The position numbers and the translations under genes are program-made. 55,046 nt of DNA from Planctomycetaceae bacterium (GTDB lineage: Bacteria; Planctomycetota; Planctomycetia; Pirellulales; UBA1268), in contig WTHB01000021.1 in the NCBI GenBank assembly GCA_011523305.1, positions 67,656 through 122,701 on the forward strand, read 5' to 3'. A model generated the notes under the pieces. It was not told where the DNA came from. It saw only the letters and a list, made by a program, of their open reading frames with translations, and made no database searches. This document shows, in pieces, positions 12,031 to 54,598 of the stretch. The first letter of the stretch is position 1; every line of letters starts with the position of its first letter.

Positions 12031-12113
12031 GCCGGAGTGGCGGAATGGCAGACGCGACGGATTCAAAATCCGTTGCCCGCAAGGGCGTGTGGGTTCAAGT
12101 CCCACCTCCGGCA
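12031..12113 (+). tRNA. tRNA-Leu(CAA)
   Basis: An 83-nt cloverleaf with a long variable arm, as expected for a class II tRNA. The acceptor GCCGGAG (12031-12037) pairs with CTCCGGC (12106-12112) and the discriminator is A at 12113. The anticodon stem is ACGGA/TCCGT around the loop TTCAAAA, giving anticodon CAA (reads UUG). The T arm is GTGGG-TTCAAGT-CCCAC. CCA is not encoded. Confidence 0.95.
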
Positions 12114-47392: not shown

Positions 47393-48889
47393 ATGAATCC
47401 CCCAATTCGCTCACCACTGGATGAACTCGGCCTGAACCTTACCCGGCGGCGATTCTTCGAACAGGGGAGCCACTTGCTCGGCGGTGCGGCGCTGGCCTCC
47501 CTACTGCCCAGCGGCCACGCGCAAGCCGCGGTGCCTGCCGCCAACGCCGACGCCGGCTTGACAAAGGTGCCTGGTGCTATCGGCCCTCACTTTGCGCCGA
47601 AGGCCAAGCATGTGATCTACCTGCACATGGTCGGCGGACCGCCGCAGCAGGACATGTTCGACTACAAGCCACAGATGAACGATTGGTACGACAAGGATTT
47701 GCCGGAGAGCATTCGCAATGGTCAGCGGCTAACGACCATGACCTCGGGCCAGAAGCGGTTTCCAATCGCACCGTCCAAGTTTAAGTTCACCCAGCACGGA
47801 GAGTGCGGCATGTGGGTGACTGAATTGTTGCCTTGGACGGCCAAAATGGTCGACGACATGTGCTTTATTCGCAGCATGCACACCGAGGCGATCAACCATG
47901 AGCCGGCGATTACCTATATGCAGACTGGGAATCAGATCACCGGCCGGCCCTGTCTTGGATCGTGGACCAGTTACGGACTCGGCAGCCTGAATGATGACCT
48001 CCCAGCGTTCGTGGTGCTGGTCGCCAAATCGACGAAACCGGCCCAGGCCCAGGCGATCGGTGCCAGGCTTTGGTCGAGTGGCTACCTGCCGGGTGAATAC
48101 GCCGGTGTGAGTTTTCGTTCAAGCGGCGATCCAATTCTCTATCTTACCAATCCGCCGGGCGTGCCCGATGCTGTGCGTCGCCAGACGCTCGACGGCCTGC
48201 AGGCGCTCAACCAGCGGACGTTTGAGCAGATTGGTGATCCGGAGATTCGCACCCGGATCGCCCAGTACGAGATGGCCTATCGGATGCAGACCAGTGTGCC
48301 GGAGTTGACCGATCTTTCGAGTGAGTCAGCCAGCACGTTGGCCCTCTATGGAGATCAGGTCACCGATCCGGGCTCGTTTGCCAATTCCGTCCTGATGGCG
48401 CGGCGGATGGTGGAGCGGGGCGTACGATTCGTGCAGCTCTATCTCAACCATTGGGACACCCACGGAGACGTCGCTGGCCGGCTGCCCAATGGCTGCCGCG
48501 ACATCGACCAGGCCTGCTACGGGCTGGTGCAGGACCTCAAGGCCCGCGGCCTGCTTGACGACACGCTGATTATCTGGGGCGGCGAGTTCGGCCGCACGGT
48601 CTACTCGCAGGGAGGCCTGTCGAAGCAGAACTATGGCCGCGATCATCACCCGCGGTGCTTCACCATGTGGATGTGTGGCGGTGGTGCCCGGCCGGGACAG
48701 ATTTATGGCGAGACCGACGACTTCTCCTACAACATTGTCAAAGACCCGGTGCACATCCGTGACTTCCATGCCACAGCGTTGCATCTCCTAGGCTTCGACC
48801 ATGAGCGGTTCACCTATCGGCACCTTGGGCTCGATCAGAAATTGACTGGCGTCGAGCACGCTCGGGTGATTTCTGACCTGATCGCCTAA
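47393..48889 (+). CDS. DUF1501 family protein with Tat signal (second copy)
   Basis: A 498-aa partner of the preceding cytochrome gene. The N terminus '[20 protein letters not shown]' is a twin-arginine signal. Family blocks: '[20 protein letters not shown]', '[19 protein letters not shown]', '[16 protein letters not shown]', '[17 protein letters not shown]' and '[15 protein letters not shown]'. It resembles the copy at 17.3-18.7 kb in order of motifs, but the two clearly diverge, so the two cassettes are old paralogs rather than a recent duplication. Biochemical function is unknown for the family. Confidence 0.92.
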
Positions 48890-48990: not shown

Positions 48991-49063
48991 GCCCTCGTAG
49001 CTCAGGGGATAGAGCACCGCTTTCCTAAAGCGGGTGTCGCAGGTTCGAATCCTGCCGGGGGTA
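48991..49063 (+). tRNA. tRNA-Arg(CCT)
   Basis: A 73-nt cloverleaf. Acceptor GCCCTCG (48991-48997) pairs with CGGGGGT (49056-49062) with G-U pairs, and the discriminator is A at 49063. The anticodon arm CCGCT-TTCCTAA-AGCGG gives anticodon CCT (reads AGG). The T arm is GCAGG-TTCGAAT-CCTGC. CCA is not encoded. The 3' end is repeated at 50965-50984, marking it as an integration site. Confidence 0.95.
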
Positions 49064-49067
49064 GTTT
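49048..49067 (+). repeat. Left att-like repeat (tRNA-Arg 3' end)
   Basis: AATCCTGCCGGGGGTAGTTT. It covers the 3' half of the T arm and the acceptor strand of tRNA-Arg(CCT) and four bases beyond. Eighteen of twenty positions match 50965-50984. Confidence 0.65.
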
Positions 49068-49100
49068 CTTTTCGACAGGTCTAGTGGTTTTTGGAGGTTT

Positions 49101-49127
49101 GCACACATCTGTGTGCGATTTGTGTGC
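49101..49127. repeat. Heptamer array, left arm-type sites
   Basis: Three copies of TGTGTGC: inverted at 49101-49107, direct at 49110-49116 and 49121-49127. The inverted and first direct copies form a perfect GCACACA-TC-TGTGTGC palindrome. The two direct copies are exactly repeated at 50826-50843. Confidence 0.6.
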
Positions 49128-49381
49128 TTTGCTGGTTTGTCGGAGCAGAGTTCAGCCTCTTTGGTTCTGGACCATCTTTGATGCGCCAAGCTACCTGGCA
49201 GCAAAGGCTGGTGGTCAGCGGTTGGGGGTGTCTTAGCCAATCAAACAAGATCCAAGAATCCAGCCCACCAAGAAGAGAGGGCTAATTTCGACGAATTCTA
49301 ATTTTTTCGACAAGCCGCCGCTTGATGTCCTAACCTGAATATTCTTGGCGACCCGCTCTATTACCGAAAGGCCGACTCTTC

Positions 49382-49828
49382 ATGCGTGCCAAAATGAAGT
49401 GTTCCCATTGCGGAGCCGAAATGTCAAATCTCAATATGTCTTGGGGTTGGAAGCAATTGCTGATCGTAATCCCGATCATGTTGCTGGGGTTTTATCCACT
49501 CGCGAGACTGACTCTTCTCCAAGGTGACATAAGCAAAGACCTGACCATAAGTGGAGTGCAAAAACGACTGACTGATCGCAGCCTCGAGATTATCGGCCTG
49601 ATCACCAACACTGGGAGCCACACATGGTCTAGCGTGACGATTGAAGCTGAGTTCTTCGACAGTTCTGGTGCGTTTATTGATGAGGCTTCCGAGTACCTTC
49701 GGGTCGATATCGCCGCAAATGCTAAAGAGCATTTCAAGGTGACCATCGATAGCCCCGCTGAAGCATTAACCGCACCCGAAACTAAAATGGTTGTTAAGGT
49801 CGGAGGTGGTCATGCATCACCGTTTTGA
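49382..49828 (+). CDS. FxLYD-type protein with zinc ribbon and membrane anchor
   Basis: A 148-aa product. A short N-terminal zinc-ribbon knuckle (C8-x2-C11 in 'MKCSHCGAEMSN') is followed by one membrane helix (about residues 25-43, 'LLIVIPIMLLGFYPLARL') and an extracytoplasmic domain of about 95 residues. This domain ('EIIGLITNTGSHTWSSVTI', 'EFFDSSGAFI') matches the FxLYD pattern of small Ig-like beta domains. Start may be 49382 or the ATG four codons later (49394). It is the first gene inside the tRNA-Arg-associated element, and its 3' end overlaps the opposite-strand gene remnant by 12 bp. Function unknown. Confidence 0.7.
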   Translation: MRAKMKCSHCGAEMSNLNMSWGWKQLLIVIPIMLLGFYPLARLTLLQGDISKDLTISGVQKRLTDRSLEIIGLITNTGSHTWSSVTIEAEFFDSSGAFIDEASEYLRVDIAANAKEHFKVTIDSPAEALTAPETKMVVKVGGGHASPF

Positions 49829-50097
49829 TCGCGATTTCGGTGCCGCAGAGGCGATAGCCCAGTGAACGGTCTCGTTGATTCTCTCGTAGTTGGGTTGGCT
49901 GGCTTTCATACTCTCAATGAAGGCCACCACATTCTCGCTAACCGTTGGGTCAGCGATCGATTTAGTGGTGCCTTCATCGGCTGATCCTCGGGCAAGCGTT
50001 TCCGTCTTTCACGCCATTCAGCAAGTACCTCATCCTGCTTGAGTCTGGAAGCAGGGGAGCCAAACTTGCGCGACGATACGTCATGTTCGTCAATCAA
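49817..50097 (-). pseudogene. Small gene interrupted by a frameshift
   Basis: Two protein-like frames join near 49980. The first, from a TTG at 50097, reads '..SPASRLKQDEVLAEWRERR' and continues sensibly to 'LPEDQ'. The second picks up in another frame as 'ADEGTTKSIADPTVSENVV' and ends '..HWAIASAAPKSRSKR' at 49817. One missing or extra base, or a -1 ribosomal shift, would give a single protein of about 93 aa. No family is recognised. It lies downstream of the helix-turn-helix gene on the same strand, and its end overlaps the FxLYD gene. Confidence 0.45.
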
Positions 50098-50247
50098 AAC
50101 CTAGCCCAAGCCACAAGGCTTGTACAAATGCATTTGCGGCAGAATGCCGCTAGATTGTCGTGTGCTTGCTTCTTTGCAATCTCAAGGATTTGGTGATTCC
50201 GCTTGGCTATTCCGGCATGTGTCGTTTTTGGTTGATACTTTGTTTTT

Positions 50248-50565
50248 TTATTGGCGGCTTGGACTGATCCGAAGACCAAGGCTTGCCCACGTATTCGAAA
50301 TTTTTTTGTGAAGGATGTTTTTGGTGTGTTCTGGGGCATAGCCCAGCAGTTCAGCCAACTCTGGCACAGTGAACCTCTTTGAGCGTGCTAGTTCAAGGAG
50401 TGCGTTTCTGTTCGGGTCGTAAGGAAGATTGCTCGCCTTGCAGACTCTTTTGATTGTGGACTCTGAAACAGAAAACATTTCAGCCGATTCCTTCAAGGAA
50501 TAAACATTAGCCCTCGCCATCAGGCAAATGCTTTCGTCACGTTCAGCAATATTGTGATTCATCAT
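50248..50565 (-). CDS. Small helix-turn-helix protein
   Basis: A 105-aa protein with a clear GAGAGGA Shine-Dalgarno 5 nt before the ATG at 50565. Residues about 22-45 ('YSLKESAEMFSVSESTIKRV') look like a helix-turn-helix, and a second such unit is possible at about 63-85 ('FTVPELAELLGYAPEHTKNI'). Small size and two DNA-binding units suit a transcription regulator or excisionase-like factor of the surrounding element; this is inference. I cannot name a family. Confidence 0.65.
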   Translation of the reverse strand: MMNHNIAERDESICLMARANVYSLKESAEMFSVSESTIKRVCKASNLPYDPNRNALLELARSKRFTVPELAELLGYAPEHTKNILHKKISNTWASLGLRISPSRQ

Positions 50566-50964
50566 TGGTGTCCTCTCTGCCTACCTCTGCCGTCGGGCTG
50601 AACTAAAAGAGTACGATTTGCCCATCGTCAACAAAATATCCTTGAGAAAATCCTTGCTCACCCAAGCCCTTGACAGAGATGCACGGACCACCCGCCGCTT
50701 TCGTGCCACGTTGGGGCAAAATGCAGTGAAGATAAAACCCCCCCCTTCATAAGACGAAGGGTGATTTTGGTTGGGCTGGTCGCTGAAAGGGCGAGAGAAC
50801 GCAACTGGTGGCTTCGCTTCAAGCGTGTGTGCGATTTGTGTGCAAATGGTTCTGGATGGATTCGCTGTTTTTGCTGTTGGACAGATAAAACAAGGGCGAA
50901 ACACAAGATCTTGAGCAGATCACGTTGTTGACCACTACACTTTGAAAGGCCGTTGAGTAGTGCC
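50566..50964. other. Gene-poor right part of the tRNA-Arg element
   Basis: About 400 bp with frames open on both strands (for example around 50590-50750) that look partly protein-like but have no start with a ribosome site and no recognisable family. It contains the right heptamer pair at 50826-50843. Possibly decayed coding sequence. Confidence 0.4.
50826..50843. repeat. Heptamer pair, right arm-type sites
   Basis: TGTGTGC at 50826-50832 and 50837-50843, identical over 18 nt to 49110-49127. It lies 122 bp inside the right att-like repeat, while the left copy lies 43 bp inside the left repeat. Confidence 0.6.
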
Positions 50965-50984
50965 AACCCTGACGGGGGTAGTTT
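50965..50984 (+). repeat. Right att-like repeat
   Basis: AACCCTGACGGGGGTAGTTT, matching the tRNA-Arg 3' end (49048-49067) at 18 of 20 positions, including an unbroken 12-mer CGGGGGTAGTTT. The rest of the tRNA is not duplicated. The next 210 bp up to the sulfatase start contain no gene I can support. Confidence 0.65.
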
Positions 50985-51195
50985 TTGATGGCTCCCCGTC
51001 CTCAGGTCGCTGTGACCAGAAACAAGACGCCTCTGACATGGACCATGTTTGGGAACCGGCTCCACCCATGCCTGTTCAGGGCCGCACGGGGATGCGTGGC
51101 TCCGGTCCACAACACGAGTCAAACACCGCGGGGAGAGACAGGGGAACCCCTGCTTGGCCCCATCGCTAGAACGTAATCGCTAGAAAGTGAAATCC

Positions 51196-52623
51196 ATGTC
51201 CCACGTGCGAACGCTCGTTGTCACGACGCTCTGTGCTTTCTTCCTGCCCGCGGCCATGCTCCCGAGCCAAGCGGCGGAGGTCCGCAAGCCGAATATCCTC
51301 TTCATCATGGTCGATGACCTCGGGAAGGACTGGGTCAGTTGCTATGGAGCGGATGACATCGGGACGCCGAACATTGACGCCCTCGCCGAAGGTGGGATGA
51401 CGTTTCACAACGCCTATTCGATGGGATCATGCTCACAGTCGCGGACAACGCTGCTGACAGGCAAATATCCCTATCGCACCGGGTGGGTCAGTCATTGGGA
51501 TGTGCCTCGCTGGGGAGTTGGGTATTTCGATTGGAAGAAGACGGAAAACACGACATTCGCACGGCTCATGAAAGACCTGGGCTATGCGACCTGTGCGGCA
51601 GGAAAGTGGCAGATCAATGATTTCCGGGTGGAGCCAGATGCCTTGCGGAAGCATGGCTTCGACGACTGGGCGATGTGGACCGGCTTCGAGACCAGCAATC
51701 CACCGAGCGATAAGCGGTATCAGGACCCTTACATCAACACGCCGGAAGCGGGCAGCCGAACCTATGCCGGACAATTTGGCCCCGATATCTACACTGACCG
51801 GTTGATTGGGTTCATGCGGGCTCATCACAACGAGCCAATGATGCTTTACTATCCGATGCCGCTGTTGCATGGCCCATGGGTGGCCACGCCGGACGAACCA
51901 GATGCGAGGAGCCGCCTCGATCGTCACAAGGCCATGGTCCGGTACGTCGACAAAATGGTTGGCCAGTTGGTGGACACGCTGGACGAGCTGGGTATTCGTG
52001 ACCGCACCATTGTCTTCCTGGCCAGCGACAATGGGACCGATGCGAAGATCACCGGTTCACTGAATCGACAGGCGGTCAAGGGAGCAAAGGGCTCCCAGAG
52101 CGAGGCCGGTGTTTGCGGGCCTTTTCTCGTCAACTGCCCGGGGCTTGTACCTGCCGGAGTGGAAACGGATGCCCTCACCGATTTGTCCGATATGTTGCCG
52201 ACGTTTGTTGAACTCGGTGGCGGCAAGGTGCCCGACAATCTGATTGTCGATGGAGTGTCGCTTGCTCCGCTCATCCTCGGGAAGGAGCAGGATTCTTCGC
52301 GTGAGTGGATCATGTCACTGAGTTTTGGGGCTGGAACGTTGGACGCACAAGGCGTTCGGCCGCGTCGAGATTTCGGACCGCGGGTGATTCGTGACAAGCG
52401 GTACAAGGCGTGGGTCTCCAGCAACAAAAAGATCGATCGGTTGCACGATTTGGAAGAAGATCCTCTGGAAAAAGCGAATCTGCTTGGCAGTACGGAACAG
52501 GAGCACCAGCAGGCCCTCGCAAGGTTCGAGCAGATCGTCGACTCGCTTCCCGAAAAAGATGGTCGTCCGCGGTACGAGCCAAGGGCACCAAATCCATGGG
52601 ACAGACAGATGGCGAACCATTAA
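51196..52623 (+). CDS. Sulfatase (arylsulfatase family), exported
   Basis: A 475-aa exported sulfatase that would hydrolyse sulfate esters, probably of polysaccharides. A signal peptide ends near 'LPSQAAE'. The metal-site start 'KPNILFIMVDDLGKDWV' has the Asp pair. The formylglycine motif is C79-S-Q-S-R in 'GSCSQSRTTLLTGKYPYRTG', with Gln in place of the usual Pro/Ala. 'AAGKWQIND' carries the Lys of the 'GKWH' motif (Gln for His), and 'FLASDNGTDAKI' supplies the second Asp/Asn. The ATG at 51196 is preferred over the GTG at 51187 because of signal-peptide length. It begins just outside the tRNA-Arg element. Confidence 0.9.
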   Translation: MSHVRTLVVTTLCAFFLPAAMLPSQAAEVRKPNILFIMVDDLGKDWVSCYGADDIGTPNIDALAEGGMTFHNAYSMGSCSQSRTTLLTGKYPYRTGWVSHWDVPRWGVGYFDWKKTENTTFARLMKDLGYATCAAGKWQINDFRVEPDALRKHGFDDWAMWTGFETSNPPSDKRYQDPYINTPEAGSRTYAGQFGPDIYTDRLIGFMRAHHNEPMMLYYPMPLLHGPWVATPDEPDARSRLDRHKAMVRYVDKMVGQLVDTLDELGIRDRTIVFLASDNGTDAKITGSLNRQAVKGAKGSQSEAGVCGPFLVNCPGLVPAGVETDALTDLSDMLPTFVELGGGKVPDNLIVDGVSLAPLILGKEQDSSREWIMSLSFGAGTLDAQGVRPRRDFGPRVIRDKRYKAWVSSNKKIDRLHDLEEDPLEKANLLGSTEQEHQQALARFEQIVDSLPEKDGRPRYEPRAPNPWDRQMANH

Positions 52624-53887: not shown

Positions 53888-54598
53888 ATGGAAACCTATA
53901 TCGGAATAGGTGTTCTCAGCTGTTTTGTCCTGATTTTTATCGTTGCGATCGTGGCTGGTAAGCGACGTGCCCGGGCCATGAAGGCCTTTGCCGAATCGAT
54001 AGGCTTTTCGTACATGCCGCATGCGGAAGACGACGAGGAATTCCTGCGTCCATTCAGCCGCCTGCCGCTTTTCTCACTCGGACGTGAACGGGACGTGTGG
54101 AACATAATGACTGGGAAGGTCGACGACTATCGTGTCGCGATCCTTGATTTTCGATATAGCCACAACACTGCGGGTAGACAAACTATCGGTGAGGTGTTGA
54201 CCCAAACGGTCGTTGTCCTTGACTTACCGCAGCAAGACATACCAACGTTCTCACTTCGCCCACACCGTCGTAAAGACGAAGTCGGCAAAAATCTTTTTTC
54301 CGCATTAATACCCGGGCTTGCCGAGCTGACGCCGGAGGATATCGACTTTCCCGCCCATCCAGTATTTTCAGACTACTATCTCCTCCACGGAACGCGAAAA
54401 AACGAGGCGGCAGTCCGTAGCCTCTTTCGCGACGATGTCATTGAGTACTTTGAGAACCATAAGGGACTCTGTGCTGACGGAGCAGGCACCCTGATTGCGT
54501 GTTACACGCGAGGCAAGGAGCTTTCGCCCCAAAACGCCATGCCACTTCTTGACCAAGCCGTTGAAGTAAGCAAGCTTCTGTGCGCTGCGAACGGATAG
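53888..54598 (+). CDS. Membrane-anchored protein of unknown function
   Basis: A 236-aa protein with an N-terminal membrane helix (about residues 4-23), a basic stop-transfer stretch and a soluble cytoplasmic domain. Distinct stretches are 'AFAESIGFSYMPHAEDDEEF', 'LFSLGRERDVWNIMTG' and 'VAILDFRYSHNTAG'. The layout recalls a scattered group of bacterial proteins of unknown function with one helix and a compact alpha/beta domain, but I cannot assign a named family. Ribosome site GGGGTG about 6 nt before the ATG. Confidence 0.65.
   Translation: METYIGIGVLSCFVLIFIVAIVAGKRRARAMKAFAESIGFSYMPHAEDDEEFLRPFSRLPLFSLGRERDVWNIMTGKVDDYRVAILDFRYSHNTAGRQTIGEVLTQTVVVLDLPQQDIPTFSLRPHRRKDEVGKNLFSALIPGLAELTPEDIDFPAHPVFSDYYLLHGTRKNEAAVRSLFRDDVIEYFENHKGLCADGAGTLIACYTRGKELSPQNAMPLLDQAVEVSKLLCAANG

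Follow-up and report, generated by a model that had tools for sequence, protein, structure and literature searches.

The analyzed window, a stretch of 55,046 nucleotides, is part of contig C83 and ends where this contig ends; the assembly (G000) is 95% complete and consists of 195 contigs. Its source is a planctomycete, to judge from the DUF1501 gene and from relatives with named records. Near the end of the window, an element of 1917 bp, counted from core to core copy, lies behind a tRNA-Arg(CCT) gene (Rfam tRNA, 64.3 bits). The features of the locus are:

47393-48889, + strand: DUF1501 gene, left chromosomal flank; in G001, G002, G006, and G008 a relative of it precedes the same tRNA
48991-49063, + strand: tRNA-Arg(CCT), the integration target; core and attL are formed by the final ~13 nt of the gene (49051-49063)
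49101-49127, + strand: left arm site GCACACA-TC-TGTGTGC-GATT-TGTGTGC, starting 37 nt after the core
49382-49828, + strand: cargo gene for a 148-aa protein with an FxLYD domain (NF038353, 37.2 bits, above the cut-off)
50248-50565, - strand: gene for a 105-aa helix-turn-helix (HTH) protein, HTH_17-like (26.7 bits, just missing the Pfam cut-off of 27)
50688-50745, + strand: conserved 59-position box, also present at right ends of other integrase-free elements
50743-50761, + strand: short stem-loop CCCTTC/GAAGGG just after the box, a possible terminator; folding of the window sequence is not significant
50826-50843, + strand: right arm site TGTGTGC-GATT-TGTGTGC; 124 nt separate its end from the core copy
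50960-50984, + strand: attR, the displaced copy of the tRNA 3' end (21/25), with the core copy at 50968-50980
51187-52623, + strand: sulfatase gene beyond attR, read as the right flank

The tRNA 3' end (49043-49067) is repeated at 50960-50984 with 21 of 25 identical positions. The runner-up site in the remaining 5.9 kb reached 15/25, and 21 was not reached in any of 300 shuffles. A sequence-only reading of this DNA had given the duplication as 18/20 nt, which by eye is correct for 49048-49067 versus 50965-50984. No such 3' duplication was found in the window for the tRNA-Leu gene (12031-12113; best other site 16/22). The G+C content is 49% inside the element versus 60% to the left and 55% to the right. 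The identical 18-mers of paired TGTGTGC heptamers noticed inside both ends are likewise real. They share the sequence TGTGTGCGATTTGTGTGC and occupy 49110-49127 and 50826-50843; a search of the assembly of 3,493,343 bases that tolerated one mismatch returned these two places only (backwards control: zero). The claim of a complete arm-site architecture holds for both arm pairs and missed one part of it: the left arm combines an inverted repeat with a third heptamer 11 nt further along, and the inverted copy, GCACACA at 49101-49107, had been overlooked. Integration of the element at tRNA-Arg(CCT) is near certain.

The element had been described as integrase-less and coding only for small proteins, and this was confirmed. 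Two of its reading frames look like genuine genes. The 148-aa protein has a zinc-ribbon-like start and one membrane segment (both judged by eye). The 105-aa HTH protein, which has no relative in the 71 other genomes of the family (72 in total), may act as a regulator or a directionality factor. Between the two genes, 49828-50250 holds short doubtful frames only. Profile searches of the four longer frames revealed neither an integrase or recombinase nor a remnant of one, and the frames of the element did not match TV-Pol or integrase/resolvase. An autonomous element was rejected; as the window element codes for no recombinase, integration as well as excision would require one in trans. The DNA of the element had no relatives among plasmid and phage records. 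To the right of the element, the gene at 53888-54598 (236-aa protein) has a 54% relative in G006:C111, and less than 2 kb from that relative lies a gene that by eye resembles another some 6.4 kb past the array exit in G008:C141. Because of this resemblance, position 50984 can tentatively be read as an array exit as well.

The same tRNA site was then inspected in genomes of the same genus, including G001 (Planctomycetaceae isolate Plancto9) and G006 (Pirellulales isolate BS30m-G48). The assemblies of the relatives are mostly MAG-like and fragmented, and contigs often stop within arrays. A whole or partial tRNA-Arg(CCT) gene was present in 6 of the 10 same-genus genomes, the contig of G002 stopping inside the tRNA. 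In all five genomes with sequence past the tRNA, the window included, the site was occupied by an arm-bearing element with its arm site 36-37 nt from the core, and no empty site was found. G006 and G008 have one element type in common, and G001 has a different one. Further junctions with the same core, lacking an adjoining full tRNA, were found in G001:C205 (three), C235 (two), and C364 (two), in G002:C428, G002:C482, and G008:C141, and at one inner position of G009:C92. In G008:C141, an open frame at the array exit (L102:1-298) resembles a tyrosine recombinase C-terminus by eye and had no profile match.

The junctions are in tandem in G001, G002, and G009, delimiting elements of 0.6-9.6 kb with differing cargo. 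Related genomes carry different cassettes at the same site, also in tandem. Six elements are complete, with lengths taken from the junction positions: the window element (1917 bp), one in G009 (9563 bp), and four in G001, namely in C235 (2201 bp), C205 (3424 and 612 bp), and C364 (2988 bp). Their cargo, named by eye, includes a sulfatase in C235, a 460-aa protein and a 362-aa metallopeptidase-like protein in C205, and an 825-aa protein in C364; G002:C428 begins with what by eye are metal efflux genes. No recombinase was seen among the listed reading frames of the six complete elements. The overall picture is typical of the tRNA-targeted gene cassettes known from additive islands (PMC7771536, PMC4119200, PMC10872708).

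The layout of the ends is fixed. A 7-mer inverted repeat plus a third direct copy, located 30-45 nt past the core and containing no more than one mismatch in total, was found in 9 of 14 left ends (six of them perfect) and was lacking in the other five, versus 4 of 60,000 random windows, none of them perfect, from the same contigs with runs of N excluded. The 14 left ends are not independent, as G006 is nearly identical to G008 and two of the G001 ends are nearly identical to each other. Two further ends were excluded from this count, G001:C235 at 4360, with only 44 nt of sequence, and G008:C141 at 72, which has no arms and was read as an array exit; inclusion of the latter would give 9/15. Across elements, the distance from the core to the start of the left arm site is 33-37 nt. 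At three right ends (the window and two others), the arm pair stops exactly 124 nt short of the core, and at four others, some of which are degenerate, it stops 112-137 nt short; the right arm strings were chosen by eye. The uniqueness of the 18-mer, the arm layout in comparison with random windows, the right arm distances, and the shuffles together refute the notion of chance repeats beside an ordinary tRNA, which has nothing but the imperfect tRNA copy (21/25) in its favour and retains a negligible probability.

In phage lambda, Int binds arm sites on either side of the core. The lambda-type layout proposed for the window element, with a core flanked by arms, is well supported: other elements behind tRNA-Arg(CCT) show it again with equal spacing although they carry different cargo. 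In the mechanism that we propose, a circular form would have been recombined with the tRNA gene at the core, i.e., the copy of the tRNA 3' end, by a tyrosine recombinase, which would bind the TGTGTGC arms 37 nt away on one side of the core and 124 nt away on the other. Elements of this kind with different cargo stack behind the same tRNA in the genus. The heptamers could also be iteron-like sites for a replication initiator or an HTH regulator instead of recombinase arms. Iteron copies are about one helical turn apart, as are the TGTGTGC copies with their spacing of 11 nt, and HTH proteins are encoded in the window element and in other elements. However, iterons would not account for the constant spacing to either side of the att core, for the matching of the two ends in three elements, or for the same layout at the tyrosine recombinase elements of G001 and G006, and this explanation appears improbable. 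It had also been stated that conservation of the repeats separately from the cargo would speak against a mobile element. Such separate conservation is partly what was observed, but it is also expected from cargo turnover inside fixed ends.

In contrast to their positions, the sequences of the arms differ between elements. TGTGTGC is the arm motif of the window element, the second element of G009, and G002:C482; the other motifs are GGATACA (G006 and G008), GTGTGGC and TTGGGCC (both G001), TTGTGGG (G009), and GTGCGGA (G002). The left arm agrees with the right arm at 18/18, 17/18, and 15/18 positions in three of the six complete elements, each value being the top of its row. In the other three, the two arms agree at 13, 11, and 12 positions, which is within the background of 11-15 between different elements; the maximum of 15 stems from the left arm of G009 and the right arm of the window, which have like motifs. 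A comparison of related left ends from G009 and G001 revealed 30/34 identical positions before the arms and 20/34 within them, the three arm copies having changed together. The G001 arm motif has a fourth copy, TGTGTGGCAA, which the G009 element retains despite its three changed main arms (L033:12001-12171, L036:3371-3541), as if arms had been exchanged. Element-specific arm motifs at fixed positions would probably govern the pairing of recombinases with elements.

A second shared feature is the box of 59 positions. It precedes four integrase-free right ends (the window, one in G001, and two in G009), and weaker copies are present in G001:C205 and C364. Outside the genus, only marginal matches were obtained, in G013 and G042 (E 0.006-0.009); with 76 candidates scored per genome, this is weak evidence of absence. 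When the box region was folded as DNA, the window copy gave no significant result (z +1.2), and one of seven copies reached z -3.8. Among the boxes compared (window:50688-50745 and the L099/L100 boxes), two copies have GCA...TGC in place of GCG...CGC, possibly a paired change in an inverted repeat. As to the role of the box, an origin or a terminator are guesses. The box also occurs beside a broken polymerase gene at a tRNA-Val gene in G005 (isolate bin121s). At this locus (L039:6621-8466, G005:C160), the broken gene is TV-Pol-like, the tRNA is tRNA-Val(GAC), and the orientation of the box relative to the tRNA is reversed. The adjacency of gene, box, and tRNA-Val(GAC) suggests that related elements target a second tRNA, too.

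At tRNA-Arg(CCT), the elements of G001 and G006 contain genes for a tyrosine recombinase, an HTH protein, and a polymerase-like protein of ~420 aa. The two recombinases (~410-430 aa) are 31% identical to each other and match the integrase profile phrog_1, and the G001 enzyme also matches Phage_int_SAM_5. Only the start of the G008 element is available; over 126 aa it encodes a sequence that shares 96% identity with the first G006 protein. The polymerase-like protein resembles phrog_4756 (E 3e-10) and proteins of very large phages, and it yielded no Pfam match above the cut-off and no PDB sequence match. Structure models were poor, with a pLDDT of 47 for this protein and 60 for the recombinase. 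R211, D238, and D368 are invariant in all three full sequences, and by eye RxxxK is present in two of the three and KxxxK in the third. In the portion of Iyer 2008 at hand (PMC2579912), the marks of TV-Pol are a hairpin Arg, two palm Asp residues, and RxxxK in the fingers. Because R211, D238, and D368 fit this description, the protein is called TV-Pol-like here, a family assignment made by motifs only. It was found in 4 of the 72 family genomes, in one of them broken. In G064:C2, from another genus of the family, a recombinase, an HTH, and a TV-Pol-like gene (L059:13478-17733) adjoin what looks like a degenerate tRNA-Val 3'-end copy. The G064 record CAMDDJ010000002.1 (L118) is titled Candidatus Kuenenia, yet its assembly groups in the family of the window, and the label may be wrong.

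The sequence-only reading had proposed a satellite mobilised by an integrase encoded elsewhere. The integrase elements at the same tRNA in G006 and G001 are consistent with this proposal, but they have other arm motifs, and their integrase family is absent from the genome of the window, as is the polymerase. This genome contains four PF00589 matches, which by eye are two Xer-like proteins, one protein on a phage-like contig, and one of 579 aa. Integrases next to the same heptamers had been suggested as a check, and the outcome was negative: in the stretches read around the four genes, no TGTGTGC arm pair was seen beyond two matches with three mismatches. One region of the same genome (L129, G000:C87:14000-33500) combines phage-like gene content with a tyrosine recombinase of its own. 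The exact pattern TGTGTGCNNNNTGTGTGC occurs at six places in the 72 family genomes: two in the window, two at element ends (G009 and G002), and two in G013, which are surrounded by ordinary genes or fall within them and give the impression of chance matches. No helper with TGTGTGC arms was found in the 72 family genomes or in viral contigs. The viral contigs yielded one weak integrase match, no arm or box patterns, and no polymerase-like protein.

The missing TGTGTGC helper, the absence of the genus integrase from G000, the unmatched ends of three of the six complete elements, and the five of 14 left ends without the arm layout count against a cassette mobilised in trans; neither an empty site nor a circular form was seen. 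The main rival explanation is that an autonomous recombinase-plus-polymerase element integrated at this tRNA and lost its recombinase by deletion, as in CIMEs. The ends would then be fossils, and the element would no longer be mobilised, unless a new neighbour did so in cis. The degenerate or unmatched ends of some array elements, the polymerase pseudogene with the same box at tRNA-Val in G005, and the short doubtful frames in 49828-50250 would fit such a remnant, as would a window genome in which no helper was found. In contrast, the arms of the window element are perfect (18/18), the profile searches of its four longer frames detected no trace of a recombinase, and the end layout, in some cases with the box, is common to several integrase-free elements of different cargo, which independent deletions would hardly yield. 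A dead remnant is possible but less likely than a mobilisable cassette.

The reading that we prefer, with moderate confidence, is that of a non-autonomous tRNA-targeted gene cassette of the additive-island or CIME-like kind, which needs a recombinase in trans. That the element is a non-autonomous cassette and one of a genus-wide set with conserved end geometry is likely. As the elements possess recognition sites that match and mostly lack a recombinase gene of their own, their movement probably depends on borrowed enzymes, and on balance we infer that the window element is still mobile by means of a recombinase acting in trans. A more far-reaching and rather doubtful version is a genus-wide cassette system at tRNA-Arg(CCT), with integrase-free units defined only by a core at the tRNA end, arms at fixed distances, and in part the box, in which the arm motif would be an exchangeable address that chooses among several recombinases and the box might be an origin used by a helper TV-Pol.

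tRNA-anchored cassette arrays carry adaptive genes in several aquatic bacterial groups. Among the cargo genes of this genus are those for a sulfatase, a metallopeptidase-like protein, and metal efflux. Ends that keep their geometry while the arm motif changes make arm-site specificity and the pairing of helper and cassette directly testable.

Among known systems, the additive flexible genomic islands are the closest. According to the accessible parts of the respective articles (PMC4119200, PMC7771536, PMC10872708), these are tRNA-targeted cassette arrays of Alteromonas, Ca. Actinomarinales, and Ca. Methylopumilus, with islands of 330 bp-42 kb behind tRNA-Lys in Methylopumilus. As far as these parts describe them, they have in common with the elements described here the tRNA target, the tRNA 3'-end repeats at the cassette ends, tandem additions, and variable adaptive cargo; the window element, too, has been inserted at a tRNA and is bounded on its distal side by a direct repeat of the tRNA 3' end. 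They differ, as described there, from the elements of this genus with their fixed-position, element-specific arm sites and shared box, and no description of such features was found for additive islands in the available portion of the open-licence literature. CIMEs, in the section available (PMC7563491), keep att sites without recombination genes, stand in tandem with integrase-bearing elements, and derive from conjugative or mobilizable elements. The window element likewise has its att sites and no recombination genes. Unlike expected for a conjugative or mobilizable origin in that account, no relaxase or conjugation gene was found here in profile searches that covered part of the genes. TV-Pol genes near lambda-type integrases are reported in the consulted part of Iyer 2008 (PMC2579912), with planctomycetes among the holders and members from Rhodopirellula and Gemmata in the alignment. 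The pairing of a tyrosine recombinase with the ~420-aa polymerase-like protein in G001, G006, and G064 resembles the elements in that part of the source, whereas the window element has neither gene. Tycheposons, in the excerpt consulted (PMC10872708), are tRNA-bounded cargo elements of 4-200 kb with a tyrosine recombinase; the window element is tRNA-bounded and carries cargo as well, but with 1.9 kb and no recombinase found it was not assigned to them. Integron cassettes and CALINs are, in the part of the source used (PMC11389934), arrays of one- or few-gene units without an integrase of their own. On that description, the arrays at tRNA-Arg(CCT) are similar in being integrase-free rows of small gene units and different in using a tRNA 3' end, accompanied by arm sites, for integration. 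In summary, the window element and its relatives belong with additive-island cassettes and CIMEs and form a variant of these, distinguished by arms that are specific to each element and fixed in position and by the box that they share.
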